A DNA stretch of 49,130 bases, from NCBI GenBank assembly GCA_026708565.1, contig JAPOUR010000002.1:1-49130 (forward strand), given 5' to 3'. The notes beneath the pieces were generated by a model. That model did no database searches. It was not told the DNA's origin and saw only the letters and a list, made by a program, of their open reading frames with translations. Origin of the DNA: Candidatus Dadabacteria bacterium. GTDB lineage: Bacteria > Desulfobacterota_D > UBA1144 > Nemesobacterales > Mycalebacteriaceae. Both the position numbers and the translations under genes were made by a program. This document shows positions 839 through 26,056 of the stretch, in pieces (position 1 is the stretch's first letter; every line of letters begins with the position of its first letter).

Positions 839-2388
839 CAAACTCCTCCTTTGATTCTTTCCTCTTTTCTGTCTCTGCGCCACCTCAGGCGGTTGAGCGC
901 GTTCACGAACGCCTTGGCGCTCGCCACCACAATATCGGTGTCGGAAGCCCGCCCGCGCGAGAAAACGCCCGCCTCCTCATCGGAGAGGCGGACGGTAACC
1001 TCCCCCTGAGCGTCCGTGCCGCCCGTGATGGAGGATATACGGTAGGTTTCAAGGCGCGGAGACTCTCCGGTCGCGGCCTTTATCGCCCGGTATGCGGCGT
1101 CAACGGGCCCGCCGCCCCGCTCGGAGGCGGATACCTCCGCGCCGCCCGCAAGAAGTTTCACCTCTGCCCCCGCCGCCTCGCGGGAGCCGCCCGTGAACTC
1201 AACGCTCACAAACTCATAATAGTCGGAAGAGCCCATAAATTCACTGCTTATGAGCGCCTCTATGTCTTCGTCAAAAACATACTTTTTCTTGTCGGCAAGT
1301 TCCTTGAACTTCACAAACGCCTCGCCGAACTGCCCGTCCGCAAGGTCGTATCCGAGGGTCTCAAGGCGGTCTCTGAAAGCGTGCCTTCCCGAATGCTTGC
1401 CCAGCACAATGGAGTTTGACGAAACGCCCACATCTTCGGGCTTCATTATCTCGTAAGTGATTCTGTCGCTCAGAACCCCCGCCTGATGAATGCCCGCCTC
1501 GTGGGCGAAAGCGTTTGCGCCCACAACCGCCTTGTTCGGCTGAACGGCAACGCCGGTAACTTGAGAAACCATTCTGCTCGCGGGGAATATCCGCTCGGTT
1601 ACAATCCCCGTTCTCCACGGGTTTCTGTCGCCGCGAACCCTTATCGCCATGACTATCTCCTCAAGGGAGGCGTTTCCCGCCCTCTCGCCGAGACCGTTCA
1701 CCGTGCATTCCACCTGACGGGCTCCGGCGGACACGGCGGCAAGCGAGTTTGAGACGGCAAGCCCCAAATCGTTGTGGCAGTGGACGCTGAGCGTAACCTT
1801 GTCCAGCCCGTCCACCCTTTCCAGTATGCGGGTTATCAGTTCGGAAAACTCTTCGGGAACCGTGTATCCGACAGTGTCGGGAATGTTGATGGTTGTCGCC
1901 CCGGCGCCGACCGCGAGCGAGACAACCTCGCACAGATAGCCGATGTCCGTGCGGGTGGCGTCCTCACATGAAAACTCAACGTTTGAGGTAAATTTTTTCG
2001 CGTAGGCGACCGATTCGGACGCGATTTGGGCGACCTCTTCGCGCGTCTTTCTGAGTTTGTGCCGCAGGTGTATGTCGGACGTGGCTATGAAGGTGTGTAT
2101 TCGCGGGGTTTCCGCATGCCGGACGGCTTCCCAGCCCCTGTCTATGTCGCCCTTTGCGGCGCGGCACAGGGCGGCTATCTCGCACCCCCGGACCTCCTTT
2201 GCGATATTGCGCACGGACACAAAGTCCTCCTCGGAGGAAATGGGAAATCCCGCCTCTATCACATCAACGCCCAGACGTTCCAGCTGGCGGGCGACCCGCA
2301 GTTTTTCGGGCGCGGTCATGCCGCAGCCCGGCGCCTGCTCGCCGTCTCTCAGAGTGGTGTCAAAAATTTTTACGTAGTCGGAAGACAT
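838..2388 (-). CDS. leuA: 2-isopropylmalate synthase
   Basis: Condenses acetyl-CoA with 2-oxoisovalerate, the first committed step of leucine synthesis, in the cytoplasm. Length is 516 residues, normal for LeuA. The catalytic TIM barrel opens with DTTLRDGEQ (residues 10-18, metal ligand D15). HCHNDLGLA follows with H203 and H205, and then GLGERAGN ending in N239, giving the complete divalent-metal site. The region after about residue 385 is the leucine-binding regulatory domain, so feedback inhibition is expected. The ATG at 2388 lies only 11 bases after the CCA end of tRNA-Gln and has no Shine-Dalgarno. The product start (MSSDYVKIFDTTLRDGEQ) matches the family, so the start is probably right. 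The neighbour downstream is an unrelated outer-membrane gene. Confidence 0.95.
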   Translation of the reverse strand: MSSDYVKIFDTTLRDGEQAPGCGMTAPEKLRVARQLERLGVDVIEAGFPISSEEDFVSVRNIAKEVRGCEIAALCRAAKGDIDRGWEAVRHAETPRIHTFIATSDIHLRHKLRKTREEVAQIASESVAYAKKFTSNVEFSCEDATRTDIGYLCEVVSLAVGAGATTINIPDTVGYTVPEEFSELITRILERVDGLDKVTLSVHCHNDLGLAVSNSLAAVSAGARQVECTVNGLGERAGNASLEEIVMAIRVRGDRNPWRTGIVTERIFPASRMVSQVTGVAVQPNKAVVGANAFAHEAGIHQAGVLSDRITYEIMKPEDVGVSSNSIVLGKHSGRHAFRDRLETLGYDLADGQFGEAFVKFKELADKKKYVFDEDIEALISSEFMGSSDYYEFVSVEFTGGSREAAGAEVKLLAGGAEVSASERGGGPVDAAYRAIKAATGESPRLETYRISSITGGTDAQGEVTVRLSDEEAGVFSRGRASDTDIVVASAKAFVNALNRLRWRRDRKEERIKGGV

Positions 2389-2547: not shown

Positions 2548-4464
2548 TTGTCCGTGTCGCCCCTTTCTATTATGACCAGATTTTCTTTGTTTATTGCGGC
2601 GTTTTTGCTGGCGGCGGTTTCGGCGGGAGCCGAGCCGTATGAGGGCGCGGAAAAACTTGCCCTCGCCCGCAGCGCCGCACAGAAAAGGACGGGGGCGCAA
2701 AAGGCACTTGCCCTTCTCAAGGGTCTTGAGGACAAAGTCCCGGAACTCAGCCACTATGTGTTTTTTGTGAGGGGGGAGGCGCTTTTTACGGCGGGGAAAA
2801 ACGGAGCGGCGGAGATGTTTCTTCAGGCGGCGGAAAGTGAAACACTTGAGACCGAAGCCCTTGAAAGAGCGGCGGCGGCGTTTGAAAAACGGGGCGGAAA
2901 GCGGCGGGCGGAGGAAATTTACCGGACGCTCGTAAAGTCCGGAAACGGGGGGGCGGGGGATTTTCACCTGAAAAAAGCCGCGCAACTTGCGGAAACAAAC
3001 GGCCGCAAAGAGGAAGCGGCGGAGATGCGGGAACGTTTGCGGAGAAAATATCCGCTCAGCCGTTTTTCAGACCCTGCGGCGGACACTGAGAGCAGGGCGG
3101 ACGCGCTGTTCAGGAAAAGGAAATGGAAGGCCGCCCTTGCCGTTTACAAAACCCTGCCGCCGGGGCCGCACAGAGACGCGAGAATGGCGGTCTGCATATA
3201 CAGGACGGGTAGAAAAAACTCCGCCGGACTGAAAAAAGCGCTGTCGTTGCTTGAAAACACGCGCTCCGCCGAGGGCCTTCACACCGTCGGCGTCATTCTT
3301 GAGGCGATGGCGGGCATGGCGGGAGACGAGGCGGGGAAAGCGGAAAAACTCCGCCGCGCGCGGGAGGCGTTCAGATCGGTTCACACAAAGTTTCCCGGTT
3401 CGCCGCAGGCGGGAAAATCGCTTGCAAGAGAGCAGAAAACGGCGCTCAAACTCGGCATGACGGGAGACGCTGAAAGCGTTTACTCCATCATAAGGGACTC
3501 CTATCCGTCCCTTCGCGCAGACTCGGCGTGGCGGGCGGGGTGGGCTTACTACAGGGCGGGGGACTATGAAAAAGCGGAGCGGATATTTTCTGAAAACAGC
3601 AGGGACGAAAACTCTTTTCTGGGCGGGCAGTTTGAATACTGGAGGGCGAGAATAGTTGAGAAAAGAGGAGACCCGGAGACGGCGCGGCGGATGTTTGAGA
3701 ATGTGGCGCGCGGACCTTTCAGTTATTACTCTTTCCTCGCTTCACGGAGGGCGGGAATAAAACCTCCCGCGCCCGCCGCAACGGAGATGGAGGGCGGGGA
3801 AGAGCATCCGGGCGTGAGGCGGGCGCGTCTGCTTCTCGGCGCGGGGCTTGATGTCTGGGCAAAAGCCGAGGCGCGGCTGGCGGCGCGGGAGCATCCGGAC
3901 GCCGCATGCGGGGTTCTCTCCGCCGCGGGCGATTTCCATTCCTGCATAGCGCTTGCCGGAACAAGCCCCCCGCCCGGACAGTTGCGCCTCGCCTTTCCCA
4001 GAGGCTTTGAGCGGGAGGTGAAAATGTATTCCGCCCGCAACGGGCTTGATGAAAATCTTGTTTATTCGCTCATACGCGAGGAGAGCAGGTTTACGGGCAA
4101 CGCTGTCTCCGTTGCGAACGCGTTCGGCCTCATGCAACTCATCATGCCGACCGCAAGGGAGGTTGCCGCAGAGGAGGGAGAGGAGATAAAGTCGCGCGAA
4201 GACCTGTTTGCGCCCGCGCGCAACATCAGGCTGGGAACGCGCTATCTGGGGCGGATGCTCAAAAGGTTCGGCGGCGATGTGCCCGCCGCGCTCGCGGCAT
4301 ACAACGCGGGGCTCTCAAGGGCGAGAAGGTGGAAACGGGGGGCGCTGAAAGACCTTGAGCCGGACGAGTTCACGGAATCCGTGCCGTTTGACGAGACCAG
4401 AAACTACATACGGCGCATATTCAGAAGTTACGGCGCATACACCGCCCTTTATCCCTCCGGCTGA
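2548..4464 (+). CDS. slt: Soluble lytic murein transglycosylase (Slt70-like)
   Basis: Cleaves the glycan strand of peptidoglycan in the periplasm, leaving anhydromuramic ends. It has a signal peptide (FSLFIAAFLLAAVSAGA). A long alpha-helical, TPR-like superhelix with many Ala/Glu/Lys repeats follows. The C-terminal SLT domain contains NLVYSLIREESRF (catalytic Glu in REES), AFGLMQLIMPTA and AALAAYNAG. Total length of about 640 residues matches Slt70. The start is uncertain. GAGGAAG at 2536-2542 best serves the TTG at 2548; ATG 2572 (MTRFSLF) gives the shortest signal peptide but has no Shine-Dalgarno. The 3-prime end overlaps the convergent hisH by 16 bases. Confidence 0.88.
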   Translation: MSVSPLSIMTRFSLFIAAFLLAAVSAGAEPYEGAEKLALARSAAQKRTGAQKALALLKGLEDKVPELSHYVFFVRGEALFTAGKNGAAEMFLQAAESETLETEALERAAAAFEKRGGKRRAEEIYRTLVKSGNGGAGDFHLKKAAQLAETNGRKEEAAEMRERLRRKYPLSRFSDPAADTESRADALFRKRKWKAALAVYKTLPPGPHRDARMAVCIYRTGRKNSAGLKKALSLLENTRSAEGLHTVGVILEAMAGMAGDEAGKAEKLRRAREAFRSVHTKFPGSPQAGKSLAREQKTALKLGMTGDAESVYSIIRDSYPSLRADSAWRAGWAYYRAGDYEKAERIFSENSRDENSFLGGQFEYWRARIVEKRGDPETARRMFENVARGPFSYYSFLASRRAGIKPPAPAATEMEGGEEHPGVRRARLLLGAGLDVWAKAEARLAAREHPDAACGVLSAAGDFHSCIALAGTSPPPGQLRLAFPRGFEREVKMYSARNGLDENLVYSLIREESRFTGNAVSVANAFGLMQLIMPTAREVAAEEGEEIKSREDLFAPARNIRLGTRYLGRMLKRFGGDVPAALAAYNAGLSRARRWKRGALKDLEPDEFTESVPFDETRNYIRRIFRSYGAYTALYPSG

Positions 4465-5686: not shown

Positions 5687-5734
5687 TTTTTTAAGAACTC
5701 CTCCTGAGGAAACCGGACTTTATTTTAACACATT

Positions 5735-22085: not shown

Positions 22086-24674
22086 ATGGCCGACTCAAGC
22101 ACACCCATGCTTGAACAGTACAGGAGCATTAAAAGCCGCCACCCGGACTCCATACTGTTTTTCCGTCTGGGAGATTTCTACGAGATGTTCTTTGAGGACG
22201 CCAAAACCGCCTCCGCCATACTGGGCATCACCCTTACTTCGCGCAACAAAAATTCGGACGCGCCGATTCCCCTGTGCGGAGTTCCGTGCCACAGCGCGGA
22301 CGGCTACCTGTCAAAACTGCTCTCAAGCGGACGCAAGGTCGCCATATGCGAGCAGGTTGAGGAAGCCGGGCGCGGCAAACTGGTGGAAAGGCGGGTTGTA
22401 AAAGTCCTCACGCCGGGAACCGTTCTGGGCTCCGAATCGCTTGACTCAAAAACCAACAACTACATAGCCTCCCTCGCGAAAGGCGCGGGCGGCTTTCACC
22501 TGGCGCACTGCGACATATCCACCGGCGAGTTCAAGGTCTGCTCTTTTGAAAACGAGGCGGACGCGGCCGCCGGTCTCGCAAAAATTGAGCCCTCGGAAAT
22601 ACTGCTTCAGTCCGCAGACACCGCCGCCCTTGCGGACGCCACCGCCCCCCGTCCGCTTGTAACCGTCCGGGACGACCTGTTTAACACTTCAGACCCCTCC
22701 GGGGCGCTGATGAGCCACTTCCGCATTTCATCCGCCGGAGCGTGCGGTTTTGCCGAAAACTCCGGCGCCGCGCTGGTGTGCTCCGCTCTTGTTGACTACA
22801 TGCGTGAGACCCAGATGGAGTACATGCCCGCCATAAAACTTCCGGTGTTTTACGGCCCGGAGGGACATGTTCAGATAGACGACTGCACCAGAAGAAACCT
22901 TGAACTCCTAAAACCCCTGAATCAGGATGACGGCCCCACCCTTGTGAAGGCCATTGACTTCACCCTGACGCCGATGGGGGGGCGGCTTTTGAGAAACTGG
23001 ATTGACTACCCGCTCACCGGCGCGGGAGAGATAAACGGCCGTCTGGACGCGGTGGACAACCTTGTCTCGGACACCCGGCTTGCCGAGGCGGTTTCCGGAT
23101 GCCTCAAGGGAACGGGGGATATGGAGCGGCTTGCGGGGCGCATATCCACTCCGTCCGCGCGCCCGAGAGACCTGTCCGCCCTGAAAGACTCCCTGCTTCG
23201 CGTTGCCGGTCTCAAGGAGGCGCTCGCCCCGGCTGAGGCCGCCTTCCTCCGCGCCGCGCGCGCCGGGCTGGACACCCTTCCCGGCCTCGCCCGCGAGATA
23301 GGCGAAACAATCTCGGACGAGCCGCCCGCCACGGTGGCGGAGGGAAACGTAATCAGGGACGGCAAAGACCCGGACATTGACGGCTTGAGAAAACTTCTCG
23401 GCGAGGGCAGAAACTGGATATCGGGGTTTGAGAAGAGGCAGAGGGAGGAAACGGGCATTCAGTCGCTCAAAGTGGGATACAACAGGGTTTTCGGCTACTA
23501 CATAGAGGTCAGAAAGAACGCGCTGGACATGGTTCCGCCGTCCTATGTGAGAAAACAGACACTCGCCGCCGCCGAGAGATTTACAACTCCCGAACTCTCG
23601 GAGTGGGAGCAAAAGATAAAGACCGCCGAGGATGACATACTGAGGGCAGAAAGGGAGGTGTTTGAGCGTCTGCGGCGGCTGGTTGCCGCCCGCGCGGATG
23701 AAATCAGGGCGTGCGCAAAAGAGGTTGCCGTCATTGATGTTGTCTCCTCGTTTGCGACCTGCGCCGCCCGCAACGGATACTCAAAGCCGCAAGTTACCGG
23801 AGGCGGTGAGATAGAACTCACCGGCAGCCGCCACCCGGTTGTGGAACAAGTGCGCGGACGCGCCGATTTTGTTTCCAACGATGTGATGATGGACTGTGAA
23901 GACAACAGTTTCCTCCTGATAACCGGACCCAATATGGCGGGAAAATCCACTCTTATACGGCAGACCGCCCTCATTGTTCTGATGGCGCAGATGGGAAGTT
24001 TCGTCCCGTGCTCAAGCGCGAAGATAGGAACGGTTGACAAGATCTTCACCCGCGTGGGCGCGTCGGACAATCTCGCGCGCGGGCTTTCAACCTTTATGTC
24101 CGAAATGGTTGAGACCGCCTACATAATACGAAACTGCACCGCGCGCAGCCTTGTGATTCTTGACGAGATAGGGCGCGGCACGGGAACTTTTGACGGCATG
24201 AGCATTGCCTGGGCGGTCGCCGAATACTTGCGCGATGCGGGCTCAAGAACCATGTTTGCCACCCACTACCATGAACTTGCCGGTCTCTCAGGCGTCCGGA
24301 ACTACAATGTGGCGGTCAGCCGGAAGGGAAACGACATAGTGTTTCTCAAAAAACTTGTTCCCGGCGCGTCCAGCCACAGTTACGGAATTCAGGTCGCCGC
24401 CCTCGCGGGCGTTCCCGCTCCCGTGCTGGAGTCGGCGCGCGCCATGCTGTTGTCGCTTGAAGACATGCGCTCAAAGATGAGCGAGGTTCTGGGCTCCCGT
24501 CAGACGTCCCTGTTTGCGGACGGCGCGGACAATGCGGATGATGCGGCGCCGTGCGGGGACGGGCGGCTTCGGTTTCTCAAAGAGGATGTGTCAAAGATAG
24601 ACACCATGAACCTGACGCCTTCCGAAGCCATAAAGGTAATTGAAAATCTCAAGGGCAAACTGGTGGACGATTGA
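22086..24674 (+). CDS. mutS: DNA mismatch repair protein MutS
   Basis: Recognises mismatches and small loops and recruits MutL. The 862-residue protein is full length for MutS1. The mismatch-reading motif GDFYEMFFEDA contains F31-x-E33. Connector, lever and clamp regions follow. The ATPase domain carries Walker A TGPNMAGKSTLIRQ near residue 614, LARGLSTFMSEMVETA, Walker B VILDEIGRGTGTFDGMSIAWA and THYHEL. It ends with a short helix-turn-helix tail. No mutL is in the window. yraN overlaps its stop. Confidence 0.97.
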   Translation: MADSSTPMLEQYRSIKSRHPDSILFFRLGDFYEMFFEDAKTASAILGITLTSRNKNSDAPIPLCGVPCHSADGYLSKLLSSGRKVAICEQVEEAGRGKLVERRVVKVLTPGTVLGSESLDSKTNNYIASLAKGAGGFHLAHCDISTGEFKVCSFENEADAAAGLAKIEPSEILLQSADTAALADATAPRPLVTVRDDLFNTSDPSGALMSHFRISSAGACGFAENSGAALVCSALVDYMRETQMEYMPAIKLPVFYGPEGHVQIDDCTRRNLELLKPLNQDDGPTLVKAIDFTLTPMGGRLLRNWIDYPLTGAGEINGRLDAVDNLVSDTRLAEAVSGCLKGTGDMERLAGRISTPSARPRDLSALKDSLLRVAGLKEALAPAEAAFLRAARAGLDTLPGLAREIGETISDEPPATVAEGNVIRDGKDPDIDGLRKLLGEGRNWISGFEKRQREETGIQSLKVGYNRVFGYYIEVRKNALDMVPPSYVRKQTLAAAERFTTPELSEWEQKIKTAEDDILRAEREVFERLRRLVAARADEIRACAKEVAVIDVVSSFATCAARNGYSKPQVTGGGEIELTGSRHPVVEQVRGRADFVSNDVMMDCEDNSFLLITGPNMAGKSTLIRQTALIVLMAQMGSFVPCSSAKIGTVDKIFTRVGASDNLARGLSTFMSEMVETAYIIRNCTARSLVILDEIGRGTGTFDGMSIAWAVAEYLRDAGSRTMFATHYHELAGLSGVRNYNVAVSRKGNDIVFLKKLVPGASSHSYGIQVAALAGVPAPVLESARAMLLSLEDMRSKMSEVLGSRQTSLFADGADNADDAAPCGDGRLRFLKEDVSKIDTMNLTPSEAIKVIENLKGKLVDD

Positions 24675-25075
24675 CCGCGCGGCTGCTCGGAAAACTTCTT
24701 CCCGGTCTCAAGGGGGCGCGGCGCGGGACAAGCGCGAATGCGGGCGAGGAAATAGCCGTGAAGTTTTTGAAGAAAAAGGGGTTTGCAGTCCTTGAGAGAA
24801 ACTACAGAGGCAGATACGGCGAGATAGACATCATCTGCTCGGACGGAGGGGTCATCTGTTTTGTTGAGGTGAAATCGCGCTCAACCTTCGGCCACGGACT
24901 GCCGCAGGAGTTTGTTGACAGGCGCAAAAGGAGGAAGATCAACCTCACCGCCCTCCAGTATATAAAGGAAAGGCGGACGGGCTCTCGGCCAATGCGTTTT
25001 GATGTGGTCGCGGTTGACCTCACGGACAAAACCGCAACTCTGATAGAGGGCGCTTTTGAGGCGGAACTCGGCTGA
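24671..25075 (+). CDS. YraN/UPF0102 family endonuclease-like protein
   Basis: A 134-residue protein with the conserved core EEIAVKFLKKKGFAVLERNYR, GEIDIIC and CFVEVKSRS, the D...E-x-K pattern of restriction-endonuclease-like (Holliday-junction-resolvase-type) folds. Its function is unknown in most bacteria. The start is probably the TTG at 24671, which overlaps the mutS stop as TTGA; no ATG or GTG precedes the conserved core. It is coupled to mutS, in keeping with a DNA-metabolism role, but that is inference. Confidence 0.85.
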   Translation: MTARLLGKLLPGLKGARRGTSANAGEEIAVKFLKKKGFAVLERNYRGRYGEIDIICSDGGVICFVEVKSRSTFGHGLPQEFVDRRKRRKINLTALQYIKERRTGSRPMRFDVVAVDLTDKTATLIEGAFEAELG

Positions 25076-25097
25076 CAAAAATTTTTTCAAACAGGTC

Positions 25098-25126
25098 TTG
25101 ACCCTTAAGTAGAATCCCTTTACTAT
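25098..25126 (+). promoter_or_regulatory. Promoter of the predicted small RNA
   Basis: TTGACC (25098-25103), 17-base spacer, TACTAT (25121-25126). It lies after the yraN stop and fires towards a strong terminator about 75 bases on, with no reading frame between. Confidence 0.55.
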
Positions 25127-25131
25127 TGGAC

Positions 25132-25208
25132 AGCAAGTTAGGAAACCCACTTAACTCCTCCTCCTGCTTCACAAGAGAGGCTCCCGAACAACGGGGGCCT
25201 CTCTTTTT
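25132..25208 (+). ncRNA. Predicted small regulatory RNA with an anti-Shine-Dalgarno stretch
   Basis: A transcript of about 77 bases is bounded by the promoter at 25098-25126 and an intrinsic terminator. It contains no ATG and no plausible reading frame. Its 5-prime half can form a small stem (AGTTA / TAACT) and then exposes AACTCCTCCTCCTGCTTC (25153-25170), the complement of a ribosome-binding site. The ten bases AACTCCTCCT match exactly the complement of the Shine-Dalgarno regions of the barrel gene at 8-838 (plus-strand 841-850) and of hisB (plus-strand 5696-5705). It could instead be a terminated 3-prime end of the mutS-yraN mRNA. Confidence 0.5.
25174..25208 (+). terminator. Strong intrinsic terminator
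   Basis: A 13-pair stem (from AGAGAGGC to GCCTCTCT, one G-T pair) with loop AACAA, followed by TTTTATTT. It ends the mutS-yraN unit and the predicted small RNA. There is no U-run on the minus strand, so it does not serve the convergent VKOR gene. Confidence 0.9.
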
Positions 25209-25210
25209 AT

Positions 25211-26005
25211 TTATTCGCCTCCGTAGCCGGAGAGGTTGGAAAGTTTTTTAAGCGACATTGCCCCGCGGACGAGCGAGTCGTTTATCTCCCATGTGGGATA
25301 CGCCTTGATGTCTTTTTCCGCGCACAGTTTCGGGTCGGCGTTTTTTCCCGCCGGGTGGCATTCAACATAGTTCAGAAGCTTTGCGTGGTCGCCGAAAAAC
25401 GCTTTCTGCGTGGCGCACGCCGGGCATCTGAACGAGCCGTACATAACCGCGCCGGTCTGCTTCAGATGGAGCGCGAGGCCTTTTGCAAAACTGTCGTTTG
25501 CGGGCGCGGCGGCTTGCGGCGCTTCCACCGTGGTTCCGGAGATAAAGTGGTATGAGTATCCCGCGCCCGCCGAGAAAACGGCGATTAGAACCGCCGCCGC
25601 CATGCGCGATGCCCCCGCCCCCCGGACTGACAGAATCCACACCGCCGCAACCATCAGGGCGGACGCCACGCAGAACGGGCAGACCTGTTTTATCACAAAG
25701 AACTCCGCCCACGAAAGGTATGCGGAAAACCCCGCCCCCGCGCTCGCAAGCGCTATCACTGCCGTCCGGTTTTCTCTGATGTTATAGAAGGCGATGGCGG
25801 CGTAGCCAAGCATGCCGAAAAGAGATGCGGGCATGCCGAAGACCTTGGAAAATCCGCTGTTCAGAACCTCATTGCACTGCCAGTTGCCCGAACAGTATGT
25901 CGCCGTTCCGTCCGTTGTGTAGTATATTGCCGTCAGGTAGAGGCACAGCAGAAAGCCCGTTGCGCACAGAGCAGTGGTAACCGCGCCCGAAGTTTTGTCC
26001 GTCAT
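25211..26005 (-). CDS. VKOR-thioredoxin fusion, disulfide-forming membrane protein
   Basis: A vitamin K epoxide reductase homologue fused to a DsbA-like domain; it oxidises periplasmic thiols and passes electrons to quinone, replacing DsbB/DsbA. Residues 1-155 form the four- or five-helix membrane part, with loop cysteines C38 and C44 and the active CPFC (C109, C112). After a linker, the thioredoxin domain carries CPAC (C194, C197), AYPTWEI with the cis-Pro, and a further Cys pair (C216, C228). ATG 26005 is chosen because TAGAAT lies 8 bases upstream; the open extension would run through that -10. Confidence 0.92.
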   Translation of the reverse strand: MTDKTSGAVTTALCATGFLLCLYLTAIYYTTDGTATYCSGNWQCNEVLNSGFSKVFGMPASLFGMLGYAAIAFYNIRENRTAVIALASAGAGFSAYLSWAEFFVIKQVCPFCVASALMVAAVWILSVRGAGASRMAAAVLIAVFSAGAGYSYHFISGTTVEAPQAAAPANDSFAKGLALHLKQTGAVMYGSFRCPACATQKAFFGDHAKLLNYVECHPAGKNADPKLCAEKDIKAYPTWEINDSLVRGAMSLKKLSNLSGYGGE

Positions 26006-26013
26006 GATGACCC

Positions 26014-26019
26014 ATTCTA
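26014..26019 (-). promoter_or_regulatory. -10 element of the VKOR gene, leaderless arrangement
   Basis: TAGAAT on the minus strand ends 8 bases before the ATG at 26005. The -35 region is not consensus. Confidence 0.5.
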
Positions 26020-26056
26020 ACAGCAATTTTACGGAATTATTAGCGGAGCCCCCGCA

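Follow-up and report, generated by a model that had tools for sequence, protein, structure and literature searches.

AbcR1/2, sX13, LhrC, RoxS and other C-rich sRNAs belong to phyla other than that of the bacterium studied here, often exist as sibling copies, and direct C-rich single-stranded seeds against Shine-Dalgarno (SD) sequences. CcsR RNAs have a CCUCC motif. In the Rhizobiales, the alpha-r14 or 'cuckoo' RNAs (NfeR1, SmelA075; RF02344) are described as having repeated conserved CCUCC anti-SD motifs and variable stems, with each motif in the unpaired part of a hairpin and three of them in NfeR1 (PMC3927594, PMC10746234). The two CCUCCUCCC families have three or four such motifs (PMC3927594). 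NfeR1, which has been shown to block a ribosome-binding site, represses via CCUCCUCCC motifs, and anti-SD motifs block translation of ntrB (PMC10746234). CcsR1-4 of Rhodobacter sphaeroides form a set of sibling RNAs linked to the control of stress (PMC10253847).

The window analyzed here is a 49,130-nucleotide stretch of contig JAPOUR010000002.1 (assembly GCA_026708565.1) from a Candidatus Dadabacteria bacterium. Shortly behind a yraN-like gene it holds a conserved element with a predicted promoter, anti-SD tract and terminator, and the sequence supports well the view that this element encodes a stand-alone, non-coding RNA. The explanation that we consider probable is that of a small regulatory RNA gene of about 77 nt, a diverged member of an order-wide family, whose product masks SDs and represses in trans. 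Its repressive action we infer by analogy with the RNAs above. The features are as follows.

25098-25210 (+): whole element, with promoter, short leader, C/U tract with CCUCCUCC, and 14-pair terminator
25098-25126 (+): promoter TTGACC, 17-base spacer, TACTAT; sigma-70-like, with aligned counterparts in sister and family copies
25105-25122 (+): remnant of the family spacer palindrome (TTAAG...CTTTA), probable operator 1; degenerate in the window's genus
25132-25208 (+): putative small RNA of about 77 nt, its start placed from the promoter
25136-25156 (+): leader inverted repeat AGTTAGG(7)CTTAACT, RNA hairpin and/or second operator; stem not kept through the family
25153-25166 (+): anti-SD tract AACTCCTCCTCCTG; family equivalent CATCCTCCATCCTCCTTT
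25173-25210 (+): intrinsic terminator hairpin with T run; other sequence, same form in the sister
24671-25075 (+): yraN-like gene (UPF0102), upstream neighbor; PF02021, E 2.2e-27
25211-26026 (-): VKOR-family gene, convergent neighbor; PF07884, E 8e-21

The Element and Its Copy in a Sister Genome

The promoter named in the original prediction, TTGACC-17-TACTAT, was found at 25098-25126 with 9 of 12 matches; a stretch of 1.3 kb had 2 promoter-like sites, vs. 0.2 in shuffles. The predicted terminator and its T run were also present, but the stem, at 25173-25205, has 14 pairs and not 13. The RNA at 25132-25208 folds with a z of -4.57, and none of 200 shuffles was equally stable (0/200), mostly because of the terminator. 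In the predicted fold CCUCCUCC forms an 8-nt bulge, while the AACU of the 10-mer proposed earlier as the pairing sequence is paired, so that the anti-SD sequence, described originally as exposed, is so only for CCUCCUCC. At the gathering score, no Rfam 15 family matched the element, the only matches in the window being tRNAs elsewhere, and a relaxed-threshold Rfam scan of the element gave nothing near a cut-off.

Within the genus, the window genome (G000) was compared with one other genome (G001, the sister). A copy lies at the matching place behind yraN (locus L012, about 1892-1972), the two YraN proteins being 65% identical. It reads TTGAC...CTTTACTAT, AAGTTAGG(7)CTTAACT and CTTCCTCCTCCTCCTG, followed by a terminator of unrelated sequence and equal form; promoter, leader and tract are kept. 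A DNA similarity search in relatives found chance matches of about 20 bases only.

A Family across the Order

A covariance model of the window and sister copies from promoter to tract (R1), run on 60 genomes, returned copies with TTGACA-17-TATTTT or TATATT, a TTAA...CTTAA leader, CATCCTCCATCCTCCTTTAAG and a terminator. Their core, CAUCCUCCAUCCUCCUUU, is almost invariant, and there are often two to four copies per genome. Allowing up to two mismatches, 28 of the 57 phylum genomes have the core pattern, and 0 of 57 have its reversed control. A pattern scan of general genome contigs gave one match, judged to be chance and lying in what we take to be the coding sequence of Vibrio glnE; none was found in viral contigs.

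Sixty-six places were collected, of which 62 (leaving out L151, L156, the first copy on L102, and L129) were aligned together with the window and sister copies (alignment A5). Model R2, built from A5, was run on 386 genomes. Its best matches had E ≤ 2.7e-8 in 43 of the 43 order genomes examined, among them 13 of 13 genomes of genus g6, a genus outside the model, where copies mostly read CATCCTTCATCCTCCTTTTTG and lie ahead of an SCO1-PCuAC pair. In 14 genomes of the class's other family and 329 outside the phylum, all of the matches listed were weak or partial. To guard against circularity, a further model, R3, was derived from 60 copies that exclude the window's genus as well as L128 and L131. 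Over 112 kb (the window and sister stretches) and up to E 10, R3 found only the window copy (E 2.9e-4) and the sister copy (E 6.5e-4, present in two overlapping loci).

Judged by these matches, the window element is a diverged copy of a previously unlisted small-RNA family. A literature search confined to one open collection yielded no paper that we recognized as treating this RNA family. The original prediction had proposed a covariance search in relatives, which recovered the family, and had staked itself on conservation of the C/U stretch there. The stretch is conserved by every approach used (the sister, R1 to R3, the core pattern), and the sister and family copies support the proposed small RNA gene with its own promoter, terminator and conserved anti-SD tract.

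Anatomy of Family Members

By sequence, the plan is that of a discrete transcription unit with its own promoter and terminator: a sigma-70-like promoter, a leader rich in A and U, a pyrimidine tract that is mostly unpaired and copies the 16S anti-SD (CCUCC), and an intrinsic terminator. Terminators passed a set threshold in 75 of 81 copies (window and sister included, L151 and L156 left out), and visual inspection of the six misses showed hairpins that do not reach it because of their loop, a mismatch or the T run. The unpaired share of the tract's first 15 nt exceeded 70% in 77 of the same 81 copies (median 0.92), the values for the two copies of the window's genus being 0.51 and 0.54. A conserved, accessible anti-SD is thus a feature of the family, with accessibility only about half in the window copy.

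AUCCU and AUCCUCCUU are invariant in 81 copies and the leading C is present in 77 of 81, a conservation that is partly by construction, since most of these copies were picked for their resemblance to the core (up to three mismatches), with 13 g6 copies obtained via R2 and with L151 and L156, which have no recognizable promoter, counted in. Changes within the core fall mainly on the final two bases of the first repeat. Outside the window's genus, family members have the tract AUCCUCCAUCCUCC, and CCUCC is doubled as AUCCUCCAUCCUCCUUU in most members; the window's genus departs from the family core in having no CAU and a more paired tract. The 16S 3′ end reads GGATCACCTCCTTAC in the window's genus. 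It reads GGATCACCTCCTTTTT in two genomes of family f3 (L209, L210), so that the core has CCUCCUUU in common with their anti-SD.

The promoter spacer of the family holds TTAAGTA-N3-TACTTTA, and a second, similar motif lies in the leader, the centers being 32 bases apart on A5. A leader RNA hairpin conserved through the family was considered and rejected, the best stem being inconsistent across copies; it was seen in the window, the sister, type A copies and genus g6. Because of that inconsistency, a DNA operator is favored as the role of the leader repeat in most copies, the choice being left undecided for the window's genus. In genus g6 (L277-L289), the leader repeat became TTGAT...ATCAA, with both arms changed and the spacer palindrome unchanged. 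This two-arm change speaks for an RNA stem, or another regulator, in that genus.

Genomic Addresses and Alternative Explanations

The C/U tract could act as a decoy that binds and titrates a protein or a purine-rich RNA. A tract that is near-invariant across the order would fit one conserved partner as well as many mRNAs, and several copies per genome also suit titration, but no partner was found, Hfq being the one looked for, and we regard this reading as unlikely.

Alternatively, the element might be a cis-acting leader or attenuator, with a conditional terminator and controlled read-through into the next gene. Addresses were taken from a simple ORF call, with domains checked for examples, and three recur with a same-strand gene soon after the terminator, as such a leader would have it. 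At 13 loci, with tandem copies in G033 and G035, this gene encodes a TrhO/rhodanese protein; at a second address, beside what we take from its protein to be ispE, it is a lipoprotein-like gene; and at 14 loci SCO1-PCuAC follows. A cis role is conceivable for the 47 of 68 copies whose nearest downstream ORF is on the same strand. However, that ORF is on the opposite strand, convergent, in the other 21 of 68, the window and sister among them, which rules out a cis leader as the role of the family in general. Moreover, the genes behind the element vary while the core is constant, and an unsystematic look revealed no alternative antiterminator. We consider this explanation distinctly improbable. 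The addresses also bear on the history of the window copy. One further family of the order also has a VKOR-family gene near the RNA; in family f7 the arrangement is RNA, SCO1, PCuAC, VKOR (convergent). Since the arrangement in the window and sister is RNA, VKOR (convergent), the window copy would descend from the f7 address.

It is highly improbable that the element represents only the tail of the yraN transcript, terminator included, and that the C/U tract does nothing: the element starts 23 bases behind yraN on the same strand, but the sister keeps both promoter and tract, and in relatives the element is found elsewhere and does not follow yraN. A minus-strand signal is barely credible, in which GGAGGAGGAG would be the SD of an 89-codon GTG frame at 24881-25150 (-); AGGAGGAGGAGTTAAGTG in the window has good SD spacing to the GTG, but this start codon is absent in the sister, there is no Pfam match, and frames from ATGGAGGATG are of unequal lengths and at most 14 aa in 49 of 61 family copies.

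The excellent SD of the GTG frame at 24881-25150 (-), opposite yraN, is probably a chance occurrence. Plus-strand coding was also considered and rejected. A TTG frame does cross the region, which had been predicted to be without a reading frame; the sister has an immediate stop at that place, and no recurring plus-strand start was found among the family copies.

Candidate Targets

If the element is a repressor acting in trans, turning on its promoter would produce an RNA with the anti-SD tract, the tract would pair with SD sites of mRNAs, and this pairing would exclude ribosomes and repress translation in trans, as is the case for the alphaproteobacterial anti-SD RNAs. Two targets had been proposed on the grounds of exact complementarity to a 10-mer, AACTCCTCCT. 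The complementarity is real: AACTCCTCCT is the complement of AGGAGGAGTT both at 841-850 (-), the SD of the outer-membrane barrel gene at 8-838, and at 5696-5705 (-), the SD of hisB. In a genome-wide scan for the 10-mer, of the kind suggested along with these targets, five complementary places appeared besides the RNA itself. Three are at starts, the third of them a TTG start of a parB-like gene, and the other two lie within coding sequence, the parB-like and RNase Y identities at such places being assumed by eye. A reversed control pattern had 20 matches genome-wide, so the 10-mer is not over-represented.

Neither target held up in the sister genome, where the RNA reads AACUUCC and lacks the 10-mer. 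No barrel homologue was found in 60 kb around the sister locus, sister hisB has no AGGAGG ahead of it, and the site that follows leuA is not the same. The analysis yielded no conserved target.

A Palindrome Shared with Type II Secretion Genes

Of the 57 phylum genomes, 25 contain TTAAGTANNNTACTTWA, and each of these 25 also carries the RNA. Apart from its place in the RNA promoters, the motif stands ahead of a gene for a PilN/GspL-like protein of 499 aa (PF05137, E 1.7e-4, just under cut-off), and R2 matches confined to the promoter precede gspC-like genes in many genomes of the order, one of which matched T2SSC (PF11356, E 1.4e-5, just under cut-off). Similar sites lie ahead of genes in two genomes outside the phylum (G343, G373) that, on our own reading of the proteins, are presumably gspC-like and GspL-like. 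The window's genus, in which the spacer palindrome has decayed as well, yielded no gspC homologue, and no palindrome was seen in gspC upstream regions of genus g6 (L309 and L316, whose extracts were not positioned on the gene start, were not used). A palindrome like TTAAGTA-N3-TACTTAA was observed in such promoters at L183 1501-1517, L262 about 3076-3133, and L296 about 1970-2026. Additionally, in G004 a similar promoter (L275, about 2840-3001, minus strand) lies ahead of a candidate gene for what we take to be an HtrA/DegP-like protease.

The starts of the gspC-like and PilN/GspL-like genes (L172-L196, L257-L293) lie directly behind the palindrome and have no SD. Pairing with the anti-SD at -5 kcal/mol was found for 0 of 31 such starts vs. 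37% of 95 other starts, a comparison whose p value overstates the evidence because the sequences are related and leftmost ATG starts were used. The palindrome common to the RNA and these SD-less genes makes a link between a secretion regulon and the control of translation start testable.

A bolder reading takes the core, CAU-CCUCCAU-CCUCCUUU, as anti-SD plus anti-start-codon, because it is the reverse complement of AAAGGAGG, seven bases and AUG, that is, of an SD at start-codon spacing. The RNA would then be a general switch against SD-led translation, sharing its operator with SD-less secretion genes that escape it, and one regulator would turn on secretion while lowering SD-dependent translation. 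SD-to-start spacing in these genomes is 5-8 in 22 of 41 cases, which fits an anti-start-codon reading and does not prove it. We put this forward as a speculation that is unlikely to be correct.

Comparison with Known Anti-SD RNAs

The family adds an sRNA family, unmatched in Rfam 15, that is present in every examined genome of one order, and suggests that anti-SD RNAs also arose, or were kept, beyond the groups studied so far. Here this occurs without Hfq having been found in the genome. An Hfq-dependent sRNA would be expected in a genome that has Hfq, for which the window genome (96% complete) gave no match in a search whose control was positive in 5 of 14, leaving the RNA with no known helper. 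Like AbcR1/2, sX13, LhrC and RoxS the new family has a C-rich tract, but it differs from them in having no Rfam match at cut-off. The CcsR RNAs, which resemble it in their sibling copies, are cut from a transcript common with a DUF1127 protein gene, whereas copies of the new family have their own promoter and terminator; in the window the neighbors are UPF0102 and VKOR genes, with none of the adjacent DUF1127 genes that mark CcsR and CIN1.

The alpha-r14 RNAs share the repeated CCUCC motif with the new family. However, their motifs lie in hairpin loops, which is not the arrangement here: in the new family the two motifs, spaced 7 nt apart, share a single linear tract, and in most copies the terminator is the only stable hairpin. 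With the RF02344 covariance model the window scored 14.7 bits, far below the cut-off of 58.8, which excludes membership. We infer that the mode of action would nevertheless be like that of NfeR1/alpha-r14.
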